DNA of 23,406 nt from a virus: positions 1 through 23,406 of the IMG/VR virus record IMGVR_UViG_3300046660_000189; one strand, given 5' to 3'. The translations under genes and the position numbers were made by a program. Shown in pieces: positions 677 through 10,267 of the stretch. Each line of letters opens with the position of its first letter. Position 1 is the stretch's first letter. The notes beneath the pieces were generated by a model, which saw only the letters and a program-made list of their open reading frames with translations, did not search any database and was not told the origin of the DNA.

Positions 677-690
677 CCGTTACATAACGG
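677..690. promoter_or_regulatory. Operator-like palindrome 1
   Basis: CCGTTA and TAACGG flank a two-base centre (CA), giving six-base arms with a mismatched middle. It is the least perfect of three related sites and lies just upstream of the leftward ATG at 674. A bound protein would cover the start region of that gene. Its centre is exactly 35 bp from that of operator 2. Confidence 0.72.
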
Positions 691-709
691 CGGAAGCTGG
701 CTGGCGCAA
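681..709 (-). promoter_or_regulatory. Possible weak leftward promoter
   Basis: On the minus strand TTGCGC (709-704) is followed by a 17-bp spacer and TATGTA (686-681). Both boxes match the consensus only partly. A start near 674 would make the mRNA of the leftward gene leaderless. The -10 box lies inside operator 1, so occupancy would block the promoter. Confidence 0.3.
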
Positions 710-712
710 GTT

Positions 713-724
713 CGTTACGTAACG
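713..724. promoter_or_regulatory. Operator-like palindrome 2
   Basis: CGTTACGTAACG is a perfect 12-bp palindrome identical to operator 3 and sits in the middle of the divergent control region. It lies just upstream of the TTGACG box of the rightward promoter candidate. Centre distances to both neighbours are 35 bp. Confidence 0.8.
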
Positions 725-727
725 CTC

Positions 728-756
728 TTGACGCATTAACCATATGTCGTTACGTA
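728..756 (+). promoter_or_regulatory. Possible rightward promoter of the small-gene operon
   Basis: TTGACG (728-733, five of six consensus bases) is followed by a 17-bp spacer and TACGTA (751-756), a poor -10 box inside operator 3. It would start transcription near 763, about 90 bases before the first rightward gene. The overlap fits control by a protein bound to operator 3. The weak -10 keeps confidence low. Confidence 0.4.
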
Positions 757-759
757 ACG
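748..759. promoter_or_regulatory. Operator-like palindrome 3
   Basis: This is a second exact copy of CGTTACGTAACG. It overlaps the presumed -10 region of the rightward promoter and lies upstream of the operon beginning at 853. The strict 35-bp spacing of the three sites suggests cooperative or looped binding by one regulator. Confidence 0.8.
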
Positions 760-852
760 GGACAGCCAAGGCCAGAAGCCAAGGCGGACCGAGGCGGGAT
801 TGCAGTCCCATCCCCGGTCCTGATCGAAACCCTACATCACAGGGAAACGACT

Positions 853-1562: not shown

Positions 1563-1927
1563 GCCGCTTCGTGATGTTTACCGGTGCGGGGGGCGAAAAG
1601 CTCCCCGCCGACATCGCCCTCGCCATCATTCCGAGCCTGCCCCGCGCGCAGCTTGAACATTTGGTGCAGCGATTAGTTGACCGGCTCGACGAAGAGGATG
1701 GCGACCCCGACGTTGAGGACGCCCTTGATACCGAGGACGACGTGTTGACAGACTTCGCGCGGCAAGCCGGGAACGATGGCCCCGGTTGCCGGATCGCCGA
1801 CAGCGATTTCGCGGTGGACGATCTGCCTTGCGATGACCCGGACGCGGATAAGGAGCGGGAAGAAAGGTTTGTGCCGCTTTACGGCTCGGACCAGTCGGCC
1901 GGGATTATCGCATGGAGGGTGAGATGA
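1559..1927 (+). CDS. Acidic accessory phage protein, function unknown
   Basis: The 122-residue protein starts at GTG (1559), which overlaps the previous TGA. The N-terminal half includes 'LPRAQLEHLVQRLVDRLDEEDGD', a probable amphipathic helix, followed by a long stretch rich in Asp and Glu. The strong negative charge could suit DNA mimicry or metal binding, but that is speculation; no family is recognised. The C-terminus 'PLYGSDQSAGIIAWRVR' is not acidic. Its stop overlaps the next start by ATGA. It is the third gene of the operon. Confidence 0.72.
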   Translation: MSRFVMFTGAGGEKLPADIALAIIPSLPRAQLEHLVQRLVDRLDEEDGDPDVEDALDTEDDVLTDFARQAGNDGPGCRIADSDFAVDDLPCDDPDADKEREERFVPLYGSDQSAGIIAWRVR

Positions 1928-2052
1928 GCGCGCCTCGCACAACGACAGACGGCATCCTCGTCTGTTTCGGGCTCGCGATGGTCGCCGGACTGGCGTGGTT
2001 CGTCGCGTCCCTGTTCGATCTGGCGGTGAATGTCTTGAGGCTCGCGCCGTAG
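1924..2052 (+). CDS. Tiny single-span membrane protein
   Basis: This 42-residue frame starts at the ATG at 1924, in an ATGA overlap with the preceding stop, and ends at TAG 2050-2052. The product begins MSAPRTTTDG and then has one hydrophobic stretch of about 28 residues (about 11-38) with little charge, so it should span the inner membrane once. A terminator hairpin follows 25 bases after the stop, marking it as the last gene of the operon. The tight coupling and terminator support a real gene despite its size. Possible roles include a superinfection-exclusion or toxin-like peptide; there is no direct evidence for either. Confidence 0.62.
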   Translation: MSAPRTTTDGILVCFGLAMVAGLAWFVASLFDLAVNVLRLAP

Positions 2053-2076
2053 GCTGAACAGAAAGAACCATTTTGG

Positions 2077-2107
2077 GGGCGTCGGGTTTCGACTCGGCGC
2101 CCTTTTT
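2077..2107 (+). terminator. Intrinsic terminator of the small-gene operon
   Basis: A ten-pair GC-rich stem with two G-U wobbles (2077-2086 with 2093-2102) encloses a six-base loop and runs straight into TTTTT (2103-2107). It lies 25 bases after the 42-codon gene and should end the rightward transcript. Confidence 0.85.
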
Positions 2108-2110
2108 GTT

Positions 2111-2221
2111 ATGATGCCCGAGGCTGGTCGGCGCCTGTCGTGAGAAGCGGGAGCCTTAGGGCAAAGACGTTGGGCAAAAGTGTCGGCAGCGATATTTTTG
2201 GTCGCGCTCGCCAGCCAAACG
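2111..2221. other. Non-coding spacer with no recognised element
   Basis: Between the two terminators I see no gene with a credible start and coding character, no RNA gene and no clear promoter. It is part of the 346-base gap between the accessory cassette and the last late gene. Confidence 0.5.
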
Positions 2222-2258
2222 AAAAAGGGCGGCCAGGATATTCCCTGCCGCCCTTTTT
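2222..2258. terminator. Bidirectional intrinsic terminator
   Basis: AAAAAGGGCGGC (2222-2233) and GCCGCCCTTTTT (2247-2258) form a perfect 12-bp stem with A-run and T-run on its two sides, so it can stop transcription both ways. It backs up the rightward operon terminator and ends the leftward late operon, insulating the cassette from late transcription. Confidence 0.88.
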
Positions 2259-2260
2259 GC

Positions 2261-2356
2261 TGTCCCGCTTATTGATCGGGGGCTGTCCCGGCGTCCGGCG
2301 CTAACCCGCCGCTCAAGCGGCCTTCAATGTCCCGGTGACTGTCCCGCGATTGTCCC
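2261..2356 (+). repeat. Five TGTCCC repeats, last three 11 bp apart
   Basis: TGTCCC occurs at 2261, 2284, 2329, 2340 and 2351. The last three are spaced exactly 11 bp apart, one helical turn, and continue into the TGCAAC pair at 2359 and 2370, also 11 bp apart. Such phasing suggests a protein-binding array on one face of the DNA. No gene covers this stretch. Confidence 0.5.
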
Positions 2357-2375
2357 ACTGCAACGGCGATGCAAC
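2341..2375 (+). repeat. Composite site similar to 270-301
   Basis: The order GTCCCG, GTCC, TGCAAC, five bases, TGCAAC is shared in the same orientation with 270-301. Both copies end in GATGCAAC. The two copies lie about 2.07 kb apart and bracket the accessory cassette. Spacing between the elements differs by a few bases, so this is a related site and not a recent exact duplication. Confidence 0.45.
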
Positions 2376-2392
2376 GTTTCAGAAACGTTGCA
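2370..2392. repeat. Perfect 23-bp palindrome
   Basis: The arm TGCAACGTTTC is mirrored exactly around a single central A. It begins with the second TGCAAC of the composite site and ends seven bases before the last late-gene stop. There is no T-run on either side, so it is a poor terminator; an odd-length perfect dyad fits a protein-binding site better. Confidence 0.65.
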
Positions 2393-2398
2393 CAACGC

Positions 2399-2614
2399 TC
2401 ACTGGACGGTAATTCCAACCACGTGGTCAATCCGGAACCTCCACGTCAATTGTTCGTGGTTGATGGTCATCATGGGGCCGGAAACCGCCGCGGATACTAC
2501 GTCGGTTATCATCTTGCCGCTCGCCAGCCACACAGTCACTTGCCGCCCTTCGGCGACCGATTTGTTGATGTCACTTGCTAGGATTTCAGCCGCAGCCTGT
2601 TCATTTTGTGCCAT
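2399..2614 (-). CDS. Small phage protein, function unknown, last late gene
   Basis: The 71-residue product starts MAQNEQAAAEILASDINKSV. The frame is open up to 2722, but the ATG at 2614 is preceded by GAGGGG at good distance and gives a compact protein, so that start is chosen. The sequence predicts a short helix and then beta strands ('QVTVWLASGKMITDVV', 'MMTINHEQLTWRFRIDHVVGI'), a small-barrel pattern perhaps. No membrane segment, signal peptide or known motif is seen. It follows the o-spanin by 49 bases and is the last gene of the leftward late operon. I do not recognise the family. Confidence 0.72.
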   Translation of the reverse strand: MAQNEQAAAEILASDINKSVAEGRQVTVWLASGKMITDVVSAAVSGPMMTINHEQLTWRFRIDHVVGITVQ

Positions 2615-2663
2615 ACATTTTCCCCTCTGCGCCGTGATAATGGGCACGGCGCGGGAAGTCACT

Positions 2664-2963
2664 TTAATCCGGCAGTCGGCCGGCCCATGCCTTCGTCCCG
2701 ACGACGTCGGCTTTGCAGTCACCCCACGCCGCCCGCATCGCCAGCGCGAAGGCCAGCGTCAGGTTGTCCCGGATAAGCTGCGTTGCTTCCGTCCCGTCCT
2801 TCGGGGGGAGGGCGGGGGCTAGGGGCGCATCAGCGCATTCGAGCAATTCGGGCGGCGGCTTAGTCGCCTTTGGGCTGACCTTCTTTTCGCAAGCTGTTGA
2901 GGCCAGCAGCAAGGGGGTCATCAGAAGCGGCAGCAGCAGCTTGCGCGCGGTCAGTGGCGGCAT
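2664..2963 (-). CDS. Rz1-like outer-membrane spanin lipoprotein
   Basis: The 99-residue product begins with a basic N-terminus and a Leu-rich signal peptide ending 'LLLASTAC', with Cys25 as the lipidation site; Ser at -3 makes the lipobox slightly weak. The mature part is Pro-rich ('KPPPELLECADAPLAPALPP'), typical of o-spanins. Its 5' end (2860-2963) is nested out of frame in the i-spanin gene, the classic Rz/Rz1 arrangement. AAAGGAA precedes the ATG at 2963; the longer frame to 3089 is rejected because it would bury the signal peptide. It should bridge to Rz across the periplasm and fuse the membranes after murein digestion. Confidence 0.85.
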   Translation of the reverse strand: MPPLTARKLLLPLLMTPLLLASTACEKKVSPKATKPPPELLECADAPLAPALPPKDGTEATQLIRDNLTLAFALAMRAAWGDCKADVVGTKAWAGRLPD

Positions 2964-3240
2964 CGATCGTTCCTTTCGTTTCGGCCGCAACATCGCGGGC
3001 CTCAGCGTCGGCGGCGGCATCGGCTTCCTCGACAATCTGCGAAGCCGTTTCATATTGCTTGGCGAGGGCGCGCCAGTCGTCCCGGTCACCGTCCACCGAC
3101 GCCAGGCGCCAGGACAGGAAGGCGCAGAGGGCGATGAGCAGCGCGACGACCGTGCGGGCAGGGTTGGCGGTCAACCATGACCCCAGCGCCCTGAGGCGGG
3201 CGAGAAGGGGCGCAGCGATGCCTAGGACGATGCCAATCAT
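2860..3240 (-). CDS. Rz-like inner-membrane spanin
   Basis: The 126-residue protein has a hydrophobic N-terminal region with a main membrane segment at about residues 29-46 ('RTVVALLIALCAFLSWRLA'). A long Ala/Asp/Glu-rich coiled coil follows (about 50-115) that would lie in the periplasm. This layout, position after endolysin and holin, and the embedded Rz1 gene identify an i-spanin. Its start overlaps the stop of the holin-like gene by four bases. The first 16 residues are also hydrophobic, which is a little unusual and may give a second membrane contact. Confidence 0.83.
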   Translation of the reverse strand: MIGIVLGIAAPLLARLRALGSWLTANPARTVVALLIALCAFLSWRLASVDGDRDDWRALAKQYETASQIVEEADAAADAEARDVAAETKGTIDAATDRAQAAAAASDDPLAAGLNSLRKEGQPKGD

Positions 3241-3533
3241 TTCTTCTCTCCAAAGGTGGGCCAGTTGTATGGGTCAGTCGGGGCTTCGGTGACGCTGACC
3301 GGGTCTTCCGGTTTGCCCGTGGGGACATCGTCCTTCGCCTTGCCGCCGCTGCTGGAGCCGATCCAGAACGCGACCACGGCCACCGCAAAGGACTTCCATG
3401 TCCCGATCGTGTCGCCGATCAGCGCCGCGTCTCCGGTGAAAAAGACGACGTGGACGCTGAACGCGAGATAGGCGAGCAAGAGCGCCGCGCTGAACGCGAT
3501 GACCACGCGAGCGTGCGGGACGCGGACATTCAT
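3237..3533 (-). CDS. Holin-like membrane protein
   Basis: The 98-residue protein has two predicted membrane helices, about residues 9-32 and 45-61, then a charged soluble tail with Lys and Pro. The second helix ends in 'FWIGSSSGGKAKDD', a pattern seen in several small phage holin-type proteins encoded beside lysozymes. It lies between the endolysin (one-base gap, TGACATG) and Rz (ATGA overlap). By position and topology it should form or control the membrane lesions that release or activate the endolysin. An antiholin or an unrelated membrane protein is possible; the upstream one-helix protein (4218-4580) competes for the holin role. Confidence 0.72.
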   Translation of the reverse strand: MNVRVPHARVVIAFSAALLLAYLAFSVHVVFFTGDAALIGDTIGTWKSFAVAVVAFWIGSSSGGKAKDDVPTGKPEDPVSVTEAPTDPYNWPTFGEKK

Positions 3534-3534
3534 G

Positions 3535-4221
3535 TCAGGGGCGTCGATACAGCGCGGCTTCGGCGGCGCGGCGCGTCACGAGGCCGGGGAGCTTCTTGCC
3601 CTTGGCTATCACCCACATGCCGAACGCCTTGGCTGCTTCAACGAAGCTGCGCGCGCGGTGCAGGCGAAGGACGCTCGATTTCAGGAAGGCGCCGATACCG
3701 ATGTTGAACGCTAGACTCACCATCGCCGAGAACTGATTGTCGGTCGCATCCGGGGCCGCATTGGCGACCGCGATCTCGAAGCGTTCTAGATCCTCCATCA
3801 AAAGCCGCTCGGCCTCTGCTTCGGTGATGACCATGCCCGGCTTCACATGCGGCCCGGTCGAGCCATAGCCAATCGTCCAGACCCGCGCCGGGCAGAGATA
3901 GGCCTTGAGGCGCAGGCCCTCGCTCGCCTTGACGAGCGCGAGGCCGGCGGGATTGATACGACGGCGGCCGGACTTGAGCGGCTGGGGCTTCTCGCCGCGC
4001 GCAACGCGGATAGCGGCGTCGAGAATATCGACTTCGACCTGATCAAGGCCGTCGTCGTCATCGTCCAGCTCGCGCGCGATGTCGAACAGGGGCTTGATGA
4101 TGCCGGTCGCTTTGACCTGATAGAGGATGGCGTTGATAGCGGCGACGTCGCGGCCGGTCATCGGGCCGCCGATCGCGCGGATGGCGTCGAAAATCGGCTT
4201 GTCGTCCACGAAGGTCATCAT
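3535..4221 (-). CDS. Endolysin, GH24 lysozyme (muramidase)
   Basis: The 228-residue product cleaves peptidoglycan glycan strands. The C-terminal lysozyme domain (about 88-228) carries 'KASEGLRLKAYLCPARVWTI', giving the triad E101-x8-C110-x5-T116; Cys replaces the more common Asp, as in part of the family. 'NQFSAMVSLAFNIG' and 'LVTRRAAEAALY' are further GH24 signatures. An N-terminal extension of about 85 residues precedes it, partly acidic ('ELDDDDDGLDQ'), with no signal peptide or SAR helix, so export should depend on a holin. The frame opens at 4434, but the ATG at 4221 has AAGGA upstream and overlaps the preceding stop by ATGA. Confidence 0.93.
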   Translation of the reverse strand: MMTFVDDKPIFDAIRAIGGPMTGRDVAAINAILYQVKATGIIKPLFDIARELDDDDDGLDQVEVDILDAAIRVARGEKPQPLKSGRRRINPAGLALVKASEGLRLKAYLCPARVWTIGYGSTGPHVKPGMVITEAEAERLLMEDLERFEIAVANAAPDATDNQFSAMVSLAFNIGIGAFLKSSVLRLHRARSFVEAAKAFGMWVIAKGKKLPGLVTRRAAEAALYRRP

Positions 4222-4580
4222 TTGCGTCTTCCTTGTTCGAGGGCGGTGATGCGGTCGGTCTGCTGAGTGTTGACCAGTTCGACCGCGTCGAGACGCTTGC
4301 CGGTCGTGTCGGTCTGTTGCCGGGTGTCGATCCGGGCGACGGTCAATTGCAGCTCGTTGAGCGTGGACACGCCCCATGCGAACATGCCGGTGAAGGCGAG
4401 GGTCATCACCGCGGAGATAATGATGGCCGCCCATTTGAGCGGGGCGGGGATTTCGGGCTTCGGAGCCGGGGCCGCCAAGTGCGGATAGTCGAGCGCGAAC
4501 TTCCTGACCGCCGCTTGTGCTGCCGCCTCGCTAAACGCGTGCGCGATCTCGCGGACCTGTTCTGTGCTTAGCGGGTCCAT
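4218..4580 (-). CDS. Single-span membrane protein with coiled coil, lysis cassette
   Basis: The 120-residue protein has a helical N-terminal part (1-45), one membrane helix (about 48-71, 'LKWAAIIISAVMTLAFTGMF') and a C-terminal heptad-like region ('TGKRLDAVELVNTQQTDRITALEQ') that could form a coiled coil. It lies between the tail appendage genes and the endolysin, with an ATGA overlap to the latter. Position and topology suggest a lysis accessory protein such as a holin, antiholin or XhlA-like anchor, though in XhlA the membrane helix comes last. No specific family is claimed. Confidence 0.7.
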   Translation of the reverse strand: MDPLSTEQVREIAHAFSEAAAQAAVRKFALDYPHLAAPAPKPEIPAPLKWAAIIISAVMTLAFTGMFAWGVSTLNELQLTVARIDTRQQTDTTGKRLDAVELVNTQQTDRITALEQGRRK

Positions 4581-4587
4581 TAAGCCC

Positions 4588-5349
4588 TCAGTTCACGATC
4601 AGCGGGCGGCGTCGGGTATTTGGCGCCGGATAGGTTCCCGGCTCGATCCACGCATAGAAATCGACCTTGGACGAAGCGAAGCCGGCAACCGGCTCGATCC
4701 ACGCCGCAATCGCCTCCTTGGATGCCTGAAATCCGGTGGCGAGCTGCACGCGCAATTCTACTTGCCACTGCACCCATTCGGCATTCGCGCCGGCTATGCT
4801 GATCGCGCCAGAGTTTGTCCCCGATGTAGGCGCCGCCTTGCTGCCAAAGGCAATGCGGCCTCCATCGGTGGCGCTGCCGTTGTCCTCGTTTTCCGTCCAG
4901 CCAGCGGGCTGCGCGAGCGCGGTATTGGCATTCGCCGCGTCGAAATAGACGAACAGGCTATTATCGCGGGTCGAAGCGATCGAAGAGGTCGAGTGCGTTG
5001 AAGTCGCGCCGCTGTTGCTTGTGCTGTTGCCCGGCGCTGCTTCGGTTACGTTTGACCCATCGGCATAATAGGCGATGCGGGCCGCACAGGGAACGGACCC
5101 TGTCCAAGTGAACGTAGGCGCCGCTGCGCCTTCCGCCGCGCGCCAAAGCGACGCTGTAAAGCTAGCGCCAGAATTGACCTGGGATAGCTTTTGCCATGCG
5201 GCGTCGGCGCACGCGTGGGTAGCATTGTTGTCCGATTGAACAACCGCCCACATAACCCCGTTTTGACCAAGCACCGTTGGCTTGGCTGGAGAAATCGACG
5301 CCGCCCCTGCCGAGGCTGAGCGCGCTCCAGAAGCAAGAAACTCAGGCAC
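4588..5349 (-). CDS. Tail appendage / virion surface protein
   Basis: The 253-residue protein is rich in Ser, Thr, Ala and Asn, with the pattern 'SLWRAAEGAAAPTFTWTG', 'STRDNSLFVYFDAANANTAL' and 'PAGWTENEDNGSATDGG'. This resembles beta-sandwich phage and surface proteins that carry 'PxGWt' motifs. It follows another appendage gene and so probably contacts the host surface. The C-terminus has two adjacent 17-residue repeats ending in AWIEP. The start is GTG at 5349, sharing one base with the upstream stop, with GAGG seven bases before. Receptor binding is inferred from place and composition, not from a proven domain. Confidence 0.7.
   Translation of the reverse strand: MPEFLASGARSASAGAASISPAKPTVLGQNGVMWAVVQSDNNATHACADAAWQKLSQVNSGASFTASLWRAAEGAAAPTFTWTGSVPCAARIAYYADGSNVTEAAPGNSTSNSGATSTHSTSSIASTRDNSLFVYFDAANANTALAQPAGWTENEDNGSATDGGRIAFGSKAAPTSGTNSGAISIAGANAEWVQWQVELRVQLATGFQASKEAIAAWIEPVAGFASSKVDFYAWIEPGTYPAPNTRRRPLIVN
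4633..4734 (-). repeat. Two tandem 51-bp in-frame repeats
   Basis: Residues 206-222 and 223-239 of the appendage protein align as GFxxSKxxxxAWIEPxx. At DNA level ccggctcgatccacgc occurs at 4638 and 4689, and ccttgga at 4667 and 4718, both 51 bp apart. This is a tandem duplication that has partly diverged. Confidence 0.85.
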
Positions 5350-6329
5350 TACGCCGCCTCAAGATATGGTTCGACGCCGTTGAACCCGCCCTGCGTGAAC
5401 GGCGCTGACGTGGCGGGGTTGTTATCGACGATATGCAACCGCGGCTCATAGCCAGCAGCATAACTCTTGCCAGAGCTGGAATAGTTGGTGCCGGCGGAAC
5501 GGATGCCGAGCTTCCCATCCGAGATCACACCATCATGGCGACCGCGAGCGGCAACGACGGCGGCGGCGATGACATAACCGCCGGGGAGCGTGATGCCCGC
5601 ATGGGTTTGCCCCGCCTTGTTGGCAGAGGTCGAGATGGCGATAGCGGTGGCGTCGTTCAGCACCCCTTCGTTCACATCGGTATAGACCCCCGACGACGCC
5701 CCTGTGTTGGCCGCGCTGTTGCCGTTGAGCGCCGACGCCATAAGGTGGGTGTCACGAATATCGTAATTAGCACCCATGATCTGGGAGACGCGCGTTGCCG
5801 TCGTCGAAGCCGTGGCTGTATTTCCGGGGAATAATCGCACAGCGGTAATGGTGGTCTGGCCCCCGGACCAGCCGGTCCCGCTGGCAACAGAGGTGTTGTT
5901 CATGAAGACTTCAAACCCGCTGTTTAGATCAATGCGAATGACAAGAGTGGTCAGCGCGGAGTTGGCCAGCGTAAAAGTGGAACCTGCCGAAGCCCACGCG
6001 CCTGCCGTCCAATATTGCGGAGTGACAAGGTAGCTGACGATAGTCGTCCGGAACCGAAAGACTGGAGTAGCGCCGTTATACATTTCCATAAAAGAGTCCG
6101 TGCTAGCGGACGGATTTCCCCCCTGATAGATGTCGTATCTTAGCCAGAACGAGCCGGTCGCCGAAAAGGGCGGGGTTTCGATATACTGGCCCGTCGATCC
6201 TGCACCGATATGAATGGCGCTACTGACATAAGCGGTGTCGAACCGCCCTGACGTTGTATCGCCATCGGTTATTGCTGCGGTGGTCCGCTTGAATGCTGCC
6301 AGCGAGTTGCCCGCAAAATATTTGGTCAT
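5349..6329 (-). CDS. Tail fibre / lectin-like receptor-binding protein
   Basis: The 326-residue protein has an N-terminal half (about 20-185) with the strand pattern of a concanavalin-A-like jelly roll: 'GQYIETPPFSATGSFWLRYD', 'TTLVIRIDLNSGFEVFMNNT', 'ITAVRLFPGN'. The C-terminal half is Ala/Ser/Gly-rich and ends 'FTQGGFNGVEPYLEAA'. It lies after the DUF2793 protein and the hub, where adsorption proteins are encoded. The frame opens at 6347, but the ATG at 6329 overlaps the upstream stop by ATGA and is preferred. Host-surface glycan binding is inferred from fold pattern and position. Confidence 0.7.
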   Translation of the reverse strand: MTKYFAGNSLAAFKRTTAAITDGDTTSGRFDTAYVSSAIHIGAGSTGQYIETPPFSATGSFWLRYDIYQGGNPSASTDSFMEMYNGATPVFRFRTTIVSYLVTPQYWTAGAWASAGSTFTLANSALTTLVIRIDLNSGFEVFMNNTSVASGTGWSGGQTTITAVRLFPGNTATASTTATRVSQIMGANYDIRDTHLMASALNGNSAANTGASSGVYTDVNEGVLNDATAIAISTSANKAGQTHAGITLPGGYVIAAAVVAARGRHDGVISDGKLGIRSAGTNYSSSGKSYAAGYEPRLHIVDNNPATSAPFTQGGFNGVEPYLEAA

Positions 6330-7021
6330 GGGCGCGCTCCGATCCATGTCATGCTAGCGCCGGCCGCCGTGGCGTCGGGCGTAGCGGGGGCGGTGACGAG
6401 CAATTCATCACCGATGAGGCATGACAGCGCCCCGCCGGTCGTAACGGGCGTGAAGGCGCCGCCTGTCGATATGGTGACCGTTCCCACGGGGGTTCCGTTG
6501 ACCGCCACGTCCATGACAAAGCTGGACGTCGGGTTCGTGTCGATGTTGCCCTCGAAGCCCGCGAAGTCGTTGGCGAAGTCGATGTCCTCAACGAAGGTAT
6601 ATCGCGCGATGACGTAGGATGCGGTTGGCGTTTCCTCGAACCCGGTGCCGAGCGAGAAGGCTGTCGGGATCGGCGCGCTGCCGCTAATGTCCGTCCACGC
6701 GGCGCCGTCATATCGGATGCCGACGTCCTCATCATCGACATAGATAATCATCCCGGCCACGGCTTCCTTGAACGCCCATGCCGTCGAGATGCGAAGGGCG
6801 ATCTGACCTTCTTTTCCTGCCCATGCGCCTGTCGCCGTCGCCGCAATGAGATAGGCATCGCCATCGGCGGGGGAGCCGGGAGGATCATTCTCGCCGCGAT
6901 CGAGAACGCGCGCGCCCGCTGCGAAAAACTCCAGCCAACGCGTGTTTTCGTTGACCACGACTTCCGGGATCGCCTGCGACGATTCAAGTTCGGTGAGCGC
7001 CAGAATAGGCGTGTCGGTCAT
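6326..7021 (-). CDS. DUF2793-type tail appendage protein
   Basis: The 231-residue protein opens with 'TDTPILALTELESSQAIPEV' and continues 'RWLEFFAAGARVLDRGENDPPGSPADGDAYLIAATATGAWAGKEGQIAL', the hallmark of DUF2793 proteins found in GTA and phage tails. The second half (about 125-231) is a separate beta-rich domain with Thr/Gly-rich strands and no clear name. It is encoded directly after the hub with an 18-base gap that holds an AAAGGA ribosome site. It probably decorates the tail tip or joins the fibre to the hub. Confidence 0.85.
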   Translation of the reverse strand: MTDTPILALTELESSQAIPEVVVNENTRWLEFFAAGARVLDRGENDPPGSPADGDAYLIAATATGAWAGKEGQIALRISTAWAFKEAVAGMIIYVDDEDVGIRYDGAAWTDISGSAPIPTAFSLGTGFEETPTASYVIARYTFVEDIDFANDFAGFEGNIDTNPTSSFVMDVAVNGTPVGTVTISTGGAFTPVTTGGALSCLIGDELLVTAPATPDATAAGASMTWIGARP

Positions 7022-7039
7022 TCGATCATTCCTTTGGGT

Positions 7040-10000
7040 TTAGGCTGTGGCGAGGAAGCCGTCACCGACCGCCGCCGAGACTTGCGCGACGGTCCATGCG
7101 AGATCGCCGTCCATCACTTCGGCGCCGGTGTCCGTCGTCTGATTGGTAACGGTCCAGAGATAAGCGGGGCTCGTCACAGTCTTGACGTCCGAGGCCACGC
7201 CATCGCCTACGGTCAGGTGATATTCTTCGGTTGCCTCGCCGAGCGCGATCGGGGTTCCCGACGTCCATGCCCCGCCAACGCGAGTGCGGCGTGACCACGA
7301 GAAAGACCAGTCGCCGGTTGCGGGGTCTTTGACCGCCTCCAGATGGACGGGTGCATAGGGCTTGAGGCTGTTTCCCTCGAAGTTCGATAGCGTGATGGGG
7401 AAGCCGCTGGTCCGTCCAGACGTGATCGCCATGAACGAAAGCTCGGTGCCGACCTCAGACAGCCCCAGCGTCTCATCCTGCACGGTATCGAGCAAGATGA
7501 ATTGATCGCTGGCCGCATGAAGTTCGGCGGCCCATTCCGTGCCACGGCGCCCGCGTTTGAAGCCTGACACGGTGTAGGTCTTGTCCGTGACTAGTTCGGC
7601 CGTGGTGAATTGCAGCACTTCCCAGCGCCCCAAGTTCCCGATCGCGATCAGGTTCAACAGCGGGTCGGCGTTCGCAGCGGCTTCGGTGCAGCCGATCAGT
7701 TCCCCGATTTGCAGGGTCACGGTCATCTCGGTGCCGCGGTCCCAAAGGTTCGGGTTGGCGTACGGCATAGCCTCAGCGACATAGCCCCAGGTCGCGGGCG
7801 ACGATGACGGCACGCTCGCCAGCTCGTCCGAATATTCCCCATCCGTCTCCTGATAGATGATCGCCCCCGGCCAAGTCCCATCGGCATAGGGGGCCGCGGC
7901 GACGTAGAGCAGGGGAGAGGCGTTTTCGTCGCTGTCTGTCAGCAAGGGGACGTCGAGGACGAAGCCCTTGGAGATCAGCGGAACGACAATGATGGAAGGA
8001 TCGCGCCCGTCGAACCCGGCCCCCGCCGTGCCGTCGAGCGTCGCGAGGCTGCTATGGTCATAGCGCCATTCGGTTTCGATGGTGTCGTCTGCCTTGACCA
8101 GCATCCGGGTCGCGCGGGCGGTAATGATGGCGCCGTCCAGTTCGATGGTGCGGACGTCGCCCGGTTCGAGGCCAAGGTTCTGCGCGGTCAGGGAGAACAT
8201 CGGTTGCTTGCGCTCGTTCCACTGGCGGCGAAAATATCGCTCGGCGAGCTGCGCCGCCTCGTCCACGTCGAGCGCCAGCGTGGTCAGGTCCAGCTTCTGC
8301 TCGCCGCGTGCGTCGGTGGTATCGAGCGGGCGAGAAGCGCGCTTGCTGTTCGGCTGTTGATCGGCATCCACGTCGGCGAAGTCGATGACCAGCGCCAAGG
8401 GCAGCTCCGACGACTGGCGCACCTTCACGGTATAGCGGGGGTCACCGACGAAGCGCGCGGTTGCCAGCGTTGCGCCGGCAGGAACGCCCGTCCGCTTCAA
8501 ACCCTGAATCGTCCAGTCGTGCGGGCGAATGTCGCTGTCGAAGGCGTCAAGCAACGGTTCGACCTTGTTGCTGGCCTGCCCGCGCGTGACGCTCCAGCCG
8601 CTTACGGTCTGGTCGAGCGCGCTGAAATTATGGTCGGCAATTCCGCATCCGTCCGCCACGTCGGAAACGATGTCGCCGAGATGGACGCCGCTGTTTCCAA
8701 TGCGGTCGAGGTAACGGAACGCGATTTCAAACCCGAATAGGTCGGCGCCGATGAGCGCGTGGTTGATCGGGTCGTAGATCAGACCGTCGTCGCGATTCAG
8801 AACCCAATCGCTCGTGTCAATCGTGCGAACGATAGTCAGCGTCGAAAGCGACACCTCGTTGTCATTGAGCCAGATGGTGGTCGAGCCGGGCGGGAGGTTG
8901 GCGAACTGCTTGTCGGTGTTGTAAACCCATAGCGTGATGGTCAACGAATTGGTGATCGAACCGTCAGCGGGATCGATGGAATAGAGATTGCCGTCTGTCC
9001 CATAGCCCCAAGCGAGGACGAAATTTCCGGTAACTGGATCGCAGCACGCCGCGACGTTGCCCAAATAATTTCCGACTTCTGGCAGCCCGGCGATCACGAG
9101 GAATTGCGGCCCCGTGTCCTCGATCGTCACAACGCGGTAAAAATAGGCTGTGGTCGTGTCGAGATCGATCGAGTGACCGACAGACCAGATATTGCCCGCG
9201 TTGTCGGTGAAATACCCCATCGGGTTCCAGTTGATGCCAGTGCTGTCGAGCATCCGCCATTCGGCGCCGTCGATGTAGAAACGGCTCAGACTGGAAAACG
9301 GGATGGTCAGCCAATGCTCGTCTCCGTCGCCGTCTGCGAGGACGCGGACCTCTTGCTGACCGCGCGTCGGGCCGTGGTCTTGAATGACATCGACGGAGGT
9401 GCCGTCTGCGGAGAAGCGAAGCACGCGCTCATTGTCGCCGCTGATCGCGAGGAAGCGACCGTCCGCATACATTCCAAGCCGCGAGGACAAATTGATCGTG
9501 GAGGGCAGGACGCCAGAGATCATCCGCGCGCGGGCAGCGGTGTCCCAGATTTCATAGTCGCCATCGGTCGATGCCCACATGAAGCGCGAATAATCGGTCG
9601 AGAAAGTGAAGTTCCAGAGCCGGTGCGGCGGCGACGTGACAACCGAGAATATCTCATAAGGATATTCAGGATCGGCGCTGCTCACAATCTCGACTGAGAC
9701 TTGCGGGATGCGGTTGCCGATCTTCTCTAGCGGAATGTCCTTGAGCATGATGTAGGGCGTGCCGCGATAGGCCGGGCAGCTTCCCTCCCCATGCTTGGCC
9801 TCGATCGTCGCCTGCATCCGGGGATCGGGCATCTGGTCTTCGGTGCCGAGATAGATGGCGATGCGCTCGGAAATGTCCCCGCCGTTCGAGCCGAAGTCAA
9901 AGGGAGTAACGGGACCGGCGCCCGACAGGTCATAGACAAGATGGCTGTCGAACCAGATGCGGCGCACCGCGGCGATCTCGTGCCCAGCTAGTGCGACCGC

Positions 10001-10267
10001 CCACGTTCCGTAGTAGGTATATTCATTGTATTTCCCGCCCTTGGTTTTGCGGCGGCGCTTCACCTCTTTCAGGTCTTCGGCGAAAAAGATCGGCACTTCG
10101 AGGCGGCGCATTCCCCAGACGTCGTGAAGCGCCGTGCCATAGTCGGCGCCGGTCACTTTGAGATTGTCGAGACGCGGGCCTTCGATCTTGCGCGACATGG
10201 TCAAGGCCATGTTCGCGGCAGTCAGGGCCACCGTGATCGCGGCTTTGGCGACGAAGTTAAGAGGCAT
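7040..10267 (-). CDS. Tail hub / host-specificity protein with beta-propeller-like insertion
   Basis: The 1075-residue protein is the largest of the operon and follows the DUF2460, DUF2163 and NlpC/P60 genes, the position of GTA gp15 and lambda J. Residues 1-200 have a hydrophobic start and hub-like strands ('YGTWAVALAGHEIAAVRRIW', 'KIGNRIPQVSVEIVS'). Residues about 525-760 fit the Phage-tail_3 hub domain ('NSGVHLGDIVSDVADGCGI', 'VSGWSVTRG'). The C-terminal third is beta-rich. Between these parts, about 205-522 (roughly 8702-9655) contains blade-like repeats such as 'DYSRFMWASTDGDYEIWDT' and 'NAGNIWSVGHSIDLDTT'. Its start overlaps the preceding stop by 11 bases. Hub role is confident; the propeller is inferred. 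Confidence 0.87.
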   Translation of the reverse strand: MPLNFVAKAAITVALTAANMALTMSRKIEGPRLDNLKVTGADYGTALHDVWGMRRLEVPIFFAEDLKEVKRRRKTKGGKYNEYTYYGTWAVALAGHEIAAVRRIWFDSHLVYDLSGAGPVTPFDFGSNGGDISERIAIYLGTEDQMPDPRMQATIEAKHGEGSCPAYRGTPYIMLKDIPLEKIGNRIPQVSVEIVSSADPEYPYEIFSVVTSPPHRLWNFTFSTDYSRFMWASTDGDYEIWDTAARARMISGVLPSTINLSSRLGMYADGRFLAISGDNERVLRFSADGTSVDVIQDHGPTRGQQEVRVLADGDGDEHWLTIPFSSLSRFYIDGAEWRMLDSTGINWNPMGYFTDNAGNIWSVGHSIDLDTTTAYFYRVVTIEDTGPQFLVIAGLPEVGNYLGNVAACCDPVTGNFVLAWGYGTDGNLYSIDPADGSITNSLTITLWVYNTDKQFANLPPGSTTIWLNDNEVSLSTLTIVRTIDTSDWVLNRDDGLIYDPINHALIGADLFGFEIAFRYLDRIGNSGVHLGDIVSDVADGCGIADHNFSALDQTVSGWSVTRGQASNKVEPLLDAFDSDIRPHDWTIQGLKRTGVPAGATLATARFVGDPRYTVKVRQSSELPLALVIDFADVDADQQPNSKRASRPLDTTDARGEQKLDLTTLALDVDEAAQLAERYFRRQWNERKQPMFSLTAQNLGLEPGDVRTIELDGAIITARATRMLVKADDTIETEWRYDHSSLATLDGTAGAGFDGRDPSIIVVPLISKGFVLDVPLLTDSDENASPLLYVAAAPYADGTWPGAIIYQETDGEYSDELASVPSSSPATWGYVAEAMPYANPNLWDRGTEMTVTLQIGELIGCTEAAANADPLLNLIAIGNLGRWEVLQFTTAELVTDKTYTVSGFKRGRRGTEWAAELHAASDQFILLDTVQDETLGLSEVGTELSFMAITSGRTSGFPITLSNFEGNSLKPYAPVHLEAVKDPATGDWSFSWSRRTRVGGAWTSGTPIALGEATEEYHLTVGDGVASDVKTVTSPAYLWTVTNQTTDTGAEVMDGDLAWTVAQVSAAVGDGFLATA

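Follow-up and report, generated by a model that had tools for sequence, protein, structure and literature searches.

What is the function of a cluster of short palindromes between two divergent viral genes, and which protein would read it? The question is raised by the window studied here (i.e. the whole stretch of DNA analysed, a 23,406-base IMG/VR virus record, IMGVR_UViG_3300046660_000189), which contains three palindromes flanked by a leftward gene (330-674, or 330-743) on one side and a rightward operon (853-1927) on the other. The first candidate operator (O1) has the 12-mer core CGTTACATAACG at 678-689, which together with the flanking C and G makes CCGTTACATAACGG at 677-690; the second (O2, 713-724) and third (O3, 748-759) are both the perfect 12-bp palindrome CGTTACGTAACG, and none of the three has a strand. 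Their starts are 35 and 35 bp apart and their centres are at 683.5, 718.5 and 753.5, exactly as an earlier interpretation made from the letters of this DNA alone (the sequence-only reading) had described them, divergent genes on both sides included. With up to two mismatches allowed, the only matches across the 23,406 bases are these three, while 100 shuffles of the record gave a mean of 0.49 matches and a maximum of 2, so that none of the 100 reached three. As the palindromes also recur in unrelated contigs, the probability that they are functionless chance repeats is negligible, and no point was found in favour of it.

The palindromes are probably the operators of the divergently encoded 330-674 product, which would use them to silence its own gene as well as the operon at 853. 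This gene, on the minus strand, encodes a predicted regulator of 114 amino acids (137 if the start is at 743), here called the NAERQ protein, in which a helix at residues 5-20 contains NAERQARYRKSIKARA; the codons of its basic-helix motif N-A-E-R-Q-A-R-Y-R occupy 636-662 of the minus strand (first codon 660-662). The upstream ATG gives the alternative 330-743, by which O1 and O2 would become intragenic, but the start at 674 is favoured because relatives begin with M-x-[LM]-[ST]-NAERQ. Residues N5, A6, R8, Q9 and R13 are invariant across 16 relatives, and in the AlphaFold model NAERQARYRKSIKARA coincides exactly with a helix (residues 5-20) that has a predicted local distance difference test score (pLDDT) of about 90, the overall predicted template modelling score (pTM) being only 0.51. 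In the proposed mechanism, the N-terminal basic alpha-helix (NAERQARYRKSIKA) would read the half-site GTAACG in one major groove, and two copies of the protein would sit on CGTTAC-GTAACG with one helix per half-site, like the basic helices of a basic leucine zipper (bZIP) dimer. Occupation of O3, over the expected rightward -10, would then turn the operon at 853 off, and occupation of O1, which ends 3 bp from the ATG of the leftward gene (672-674) and overlaps its ribosome-binding region, would turn the regulator gene off. A placement like that of O1 (-20 to -28 from the ATG) is found in most relatives, and O2 lies immediately upstream of a rightward -35-like TTGACG.

The motif and the sites were linked by two scans, each blind to the object of the other. 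A palindrome-first scan, in which proteins played no part, looked for paired CGTTACRTAACG in viral and genome collections and returned 6 viral and 18 genome loci, and in 14 of these 24 the motif NAxR[QR]xx[YWFHL][RK] lies within 400 bp of the paired sites, typically at the very beginning of a small protein, the sites lying at about -21 and -48 relative to the ATG of its gene. Motif density in these loci is 14 in 24 kb near the sites versus 1 in 178 kb elsewhere, the sole distant motif being a second NAERQ gene of one locus (L074). Small NAERQ genes with upstream sites occur in Erythrobacter, Inquilinus, Sphingobium (two), Bradyrhizobium, Falsiroseomonas, Rhodovulum and other genera. The motif-first scan took only the NAERQxRYR codons into account and yielded 49 loci (39 non-redundant), and CGTAACG was the top enriched 7-mer within 500 bp of the motif (146 versus 4.7 expected), being present in 32 of the 39 non-redundant loci. 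A control scan with Pro for Asn (PAERQ) gave mostly noise, with 6 sites versus 1.8 expected; four of these belong to a single relative that looks genuine. The spacing between sites in other loci is 22-38 bp, by which the strict 35-bp spacing, proposed in the sequence-only reading, is rejected as a family trait.

It could be argued that another protein, of phage or host, occupies the sites and that the NAERQ gene is merely a frequent neighbour, since paired CGTTACGTAACG without a NAERQ gene do exist (in L004, as 18-bp CACCGTTACGTAACGGTG copies, and in L007, L083 and L085). This is improbable, however, because motif and sites occur together in Alphaproteobacteria, a Gammaproteobacterium and viral replication genes, against unrelated protein backgrounds, and because they disappear together in homologues. 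In addition, CGTTACGTAACG is confined to the NAERQ control region in eight whole genomes (2.9-10 Mb, with 2 or 4 copies each), which points to local control and not to a host regulon.

Some of these loci have features of their own. L074 carries two NAERQ-type genes on its minus strand (at about 4317 and 3542), one with Gln replaced by Arg (NAERRKRFR), and CGTAACG-type sites are near each of them. In L004, 18-bp extended palindromes such as CACCGTTACGTAACGGTG are scattered over 1885-10037 of a phage contig that has no NAERQ gene; as a member it was rejected, the palindromes probably being operators of another regulator in another system. Triple CGTTACGTAACG occurs in L083 (6019-6139) and L085 (3362-3482), with spacings of 52 and 57 bp, in Rhodospirillales metagenome-assembled genomes with no recognisable NAERQ gene.

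The joint presence and loss of motif and sites extends to a replication-initiator family that includes proteins of epsilon15 and Xanthomonas phage CP2. All 22 initiator clusters in which the motif position reads RQxx[YFWH][RK] have 3-8 CGTAACG sites in the gene, versus 0-1 sites in all 17 clusters without it (Fisher 2e-11), a split that is bounded by a tree test of motif/site covariation in which the supported changes were too few for a sign test. The initiators of L138 and L142, with Gln replaced by Ala (DAQRAREYR), have zero sites, and in Pf-like inovirus relatives, where the motif reads DAERARRYR, sites are few or absent. The in-gene sites fall in all three frames and the codons spell the site (Arg-Asn as CGTAAC 45 times, Val-Thr as GTAACG or GTTACG 85 times), from which it appears that selection acts on the DNA. 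The intragenic arrays suggest, on sequence grounds, that phage origins lie inside NAERQ-type initiator genes. Such arrays are seen within the NAERQ-type initiator genes of L090-L150, the motif-free homologues being without array, and two genes of about 140 codons (L022, 2614-3036; L039, 1077-1478) have 18-19 CGTAACG sites plus a NAERQ motif and resemble iteron arrays inside coding sequence.

Initiators of this kind also bear on what the NAERQ protein of the window would do once bound, as it might be an activator, or an excision or replication accessory factor, instead of a repressor. The intragenic arrays beside the same motif are as expected of a replication origin, and L005 and L008 adjoin AlpA-like and integrase genes. 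The sites in the window, however, straddle the divergent promoter and the start of the regulator gene, and palindromes are placed likewise in relatives with an HTH_3 gene, so that such a role is unlikely here, though less so than binding by a different protein.

These relatives provide the strongest argument for repression by the NAERQ protein. The gene at 853-1245 has relatives in L170 (75% identity), L171 (70%), L185 (51%) and the sphingomonad genome locus L188, all four of which keep the TTGACGCA element, the operon leader and the 853-type gene, and carry a divergent HTH_3 (Cro/CI-type) gene and other palindromes in place of the NAERQ gene and CGTTACRTAACG. The HTH_3 matches have E values of 1.2e-7 in L171 and 9e-7 in L188; that of L170 is weaker (7e-4) and under the cut-off. 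No HTH_3 gene was found anywhere in the window, and no integrase either, which is present in 3/3 relatives tested. Regulator and operators are thus exchanged as a unit, which argues for their belonging together and for the NAERQ protein acting in the repressor's place; the 330-674 product is best read, from these sequence comparisons, as a non-orthologous stand-in for the HTH_3 repressor. Relatives that keep the flanking genes and lack the palindromes are, literally, the outcome that had been named beforehand as counting against the operators, yet because the regulator was swapped along with them, this outcome supports the operator reading.

The same comparison locates the rightward promoter. 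TTGACGCA (728-735, plus strand) is invariant in 5/5 aligned sequences (the window and four relatives) and is its probable -35, which puts the -10 at about 751-756, within the third palindrome; one palindrome of the relatives covers the -10 position in a placement matching that of O3. A sigma-70 consensus scan found no promoter in the divergent region, and of the overlap with -10 boxes previously supposed on both sides, the rightward one is supported by the five aligned sequences and the leftward one is unsupported. There is good support for a divergent switch with several operator sites, given the HTH_3 gene and two palindromes at the same place in relatives. There is none for its supposed position apart from the phage's main repressor region, since the record has no HTH_3 gene and that of the relatives is in this very slot; the control region may therefore be the main switch of the phage. 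It would presumably serve lysogeny. A tRNA is located at 80-156 of the window, but it is not a required neighbour, being absent from L170-L172 in the stretch examined.

A number of observations weigh against the foregoing. Close relatives of the 330-743 protein were found neither in viral contigs nor in genome contigs or annotated phages, and a PDB fold search with the AlphaFold model gave no match. NAERQ-type genes are out of reach in 10/24 paired-palindrome loci, so that other proteins may be using similar sites. The best initiator tree has 4 changes, of which 1 is on strongly supported branches, i.e. few independent events, and homology to bZIP is not supported, as the hhalign score of 11.4 falls within the range of 60 column-shuffled controls (maximum 14.1), despite a register of N-N, Q-Q and R-R. 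Independently of these points, searches with the 330-743 product gave no Pfam family and no helix-turn-helix match, searching the PDB by sequence gave nothing useful, and there is a weak match of the leftward product to phrog_10506 (function unknown).

Downstream of the promoter, the operon leader (764-852, plus strand) is conserved, nearly identical in L188 (about 1390-1470), and is predicted to fold more stably than shuffled versions (z -2.7); it has no match in Rfam and is possibly an RNA element in its own right. A role of the palindromes themselves at the RNA level, whether as leader hairpins or as a leader terminator, is highly improbable: 677-690 scored weakly terminator-like on the minus strand, but the other two copies were not flagged, and intragenic sites also exist as direct repeats without pairing partners. 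The leader is followed by three plus-strand genes of unknown function at 853-1245 (with relatives in viral contigs at 75, 70 and 68% identity and in sphingomonad genomes at 28-45%), 1242-1562 and 1559-1927 (GTG start). In L185, a DUF2513 gene (2203-2811, minus strand) separates the HTH_3 gene from the shared promoter, which suggests that DUF2513 proteins belong to such switches.

The three palindromes are thus very probably the on/off sites bound by a small undescribed phage protein, with a DNA-gripping helix resembling that of yeast bZIP factors, in the slot that an ordinary helix-turn-helix repressor occupies in related phages. Its motif is unnamed and absent from Pfam, found across phages and mobile elements, and paired with a likely DNA code; in agreement with the novelty claimed in the sequence-only reading, no account of the NAERQ/CGTAACG pair was found in the literature searched, that on prokaryotic bZIP included. 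If the pairing of motif and site is true, many proteins of unknown function become predictable regulators or origin binders. The locus would also be a natural case of the helix-turn-helix repressor of a phage switch being replaced by another type of protein, operators included.

Among known systems, the closest likeness of the helix is to fungal bZIP factors of the Pap1/Yap1 type. In the paper on the Pap1 structure 1GD2, the site reportedly contains TTACGTAA. NRAAQRAFR of Pap1 (PDB 1GD2) and NAERQARYR have the same distance between Asn and Arg (Asn-x7-Arg), and both have Gln at position 5 and an aromatic residue at position 8 (PMC3865217 describes how 1GD2 is used and what the Gln does), and the invariant Asn-x7-Arg/Lys of the bZIP basic region is present in NAERQ proteins. 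The sites of Pap1/Yap1 are likewise short overlapping palindromes with a TTACGTAA core, the yeast Pap1 pairing being NRAAQRAFR with GTTACGTAAC, and as in cAMP response element (CRE)-type bZIP sites, the palindrome here consists of two half-sites, GTAACG, joined at CG. The NAERQ motif is strongly associated, statistically, with CGTTACGTAACG, which a dimer might bind in the way that bZIP dimers bind a short palindrome with a TTACGTAA-like core. Unlike Pap1/Yap1, however, the NAERQ protein has Arg instead of Ala at position 4 and its site is extended to CGTTACGTAACG. There is no Pfam bZIP match, and in the window protein no leucine zipper was found at the distance fixed for bZIP, its helix stopping after residues 5-20 without heptads. 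A single unbroken helix (residues 3-47) in the model of L068 spans both the basic region and a coiled-coil-like part and has a heptad-like second half, the heptads being, by inspection, one residue off the bZIP register. The likeness to bZIP, as far as sequences can tell, is a functional resemblance, and homology is not supported. On balance we lean, with some reserve, towards NAERQ helices being widespread in prokaryotes and phages as the equivalent of the bZIP basic region, reading one (C)GTAACG per helix. The module would have been joined to phage switches, to integration modules and to replication initiators, each with its own CGTAACG arrays, and would have reached, independently, residues and a site nearly the same as those of fungal Pap1/Yap1.

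A bacterial parallel is RptR (Zhang et al. 2025, PMC12255303), a small autorepressor with three short palindromes over its own promoter, likened by its authors to bZIP. RptR regulates restriction-modification systems and, as a small helical dimer, contacts TAGCTA through its recognition helix; the sites in the window are CGTTACRTAACG and not TAGCTA, and no sequence link was seen. Plasmid repression protein F (NCBIfam NF041430, UrfF) gives a sub-threshold match over the NAERQ helix (E 0.15), which is far below the curated cut-off and does not make the protein a member. The Cro/CI-type HTH_3 modules of L170, L171 and L188 share the slot, the divergent layout and an operator over the -10 of the same promoter, but the window regulator has no HTH_3 domain, its protein and operator are unrelated to theirs, and it has three short operators compared to their two longer ones. 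In its arrangement, in which a regulator gene and its target operon diverge and several identical operators cover the promoters, the module of the window fits the divergent repressor-operator layout of phages.
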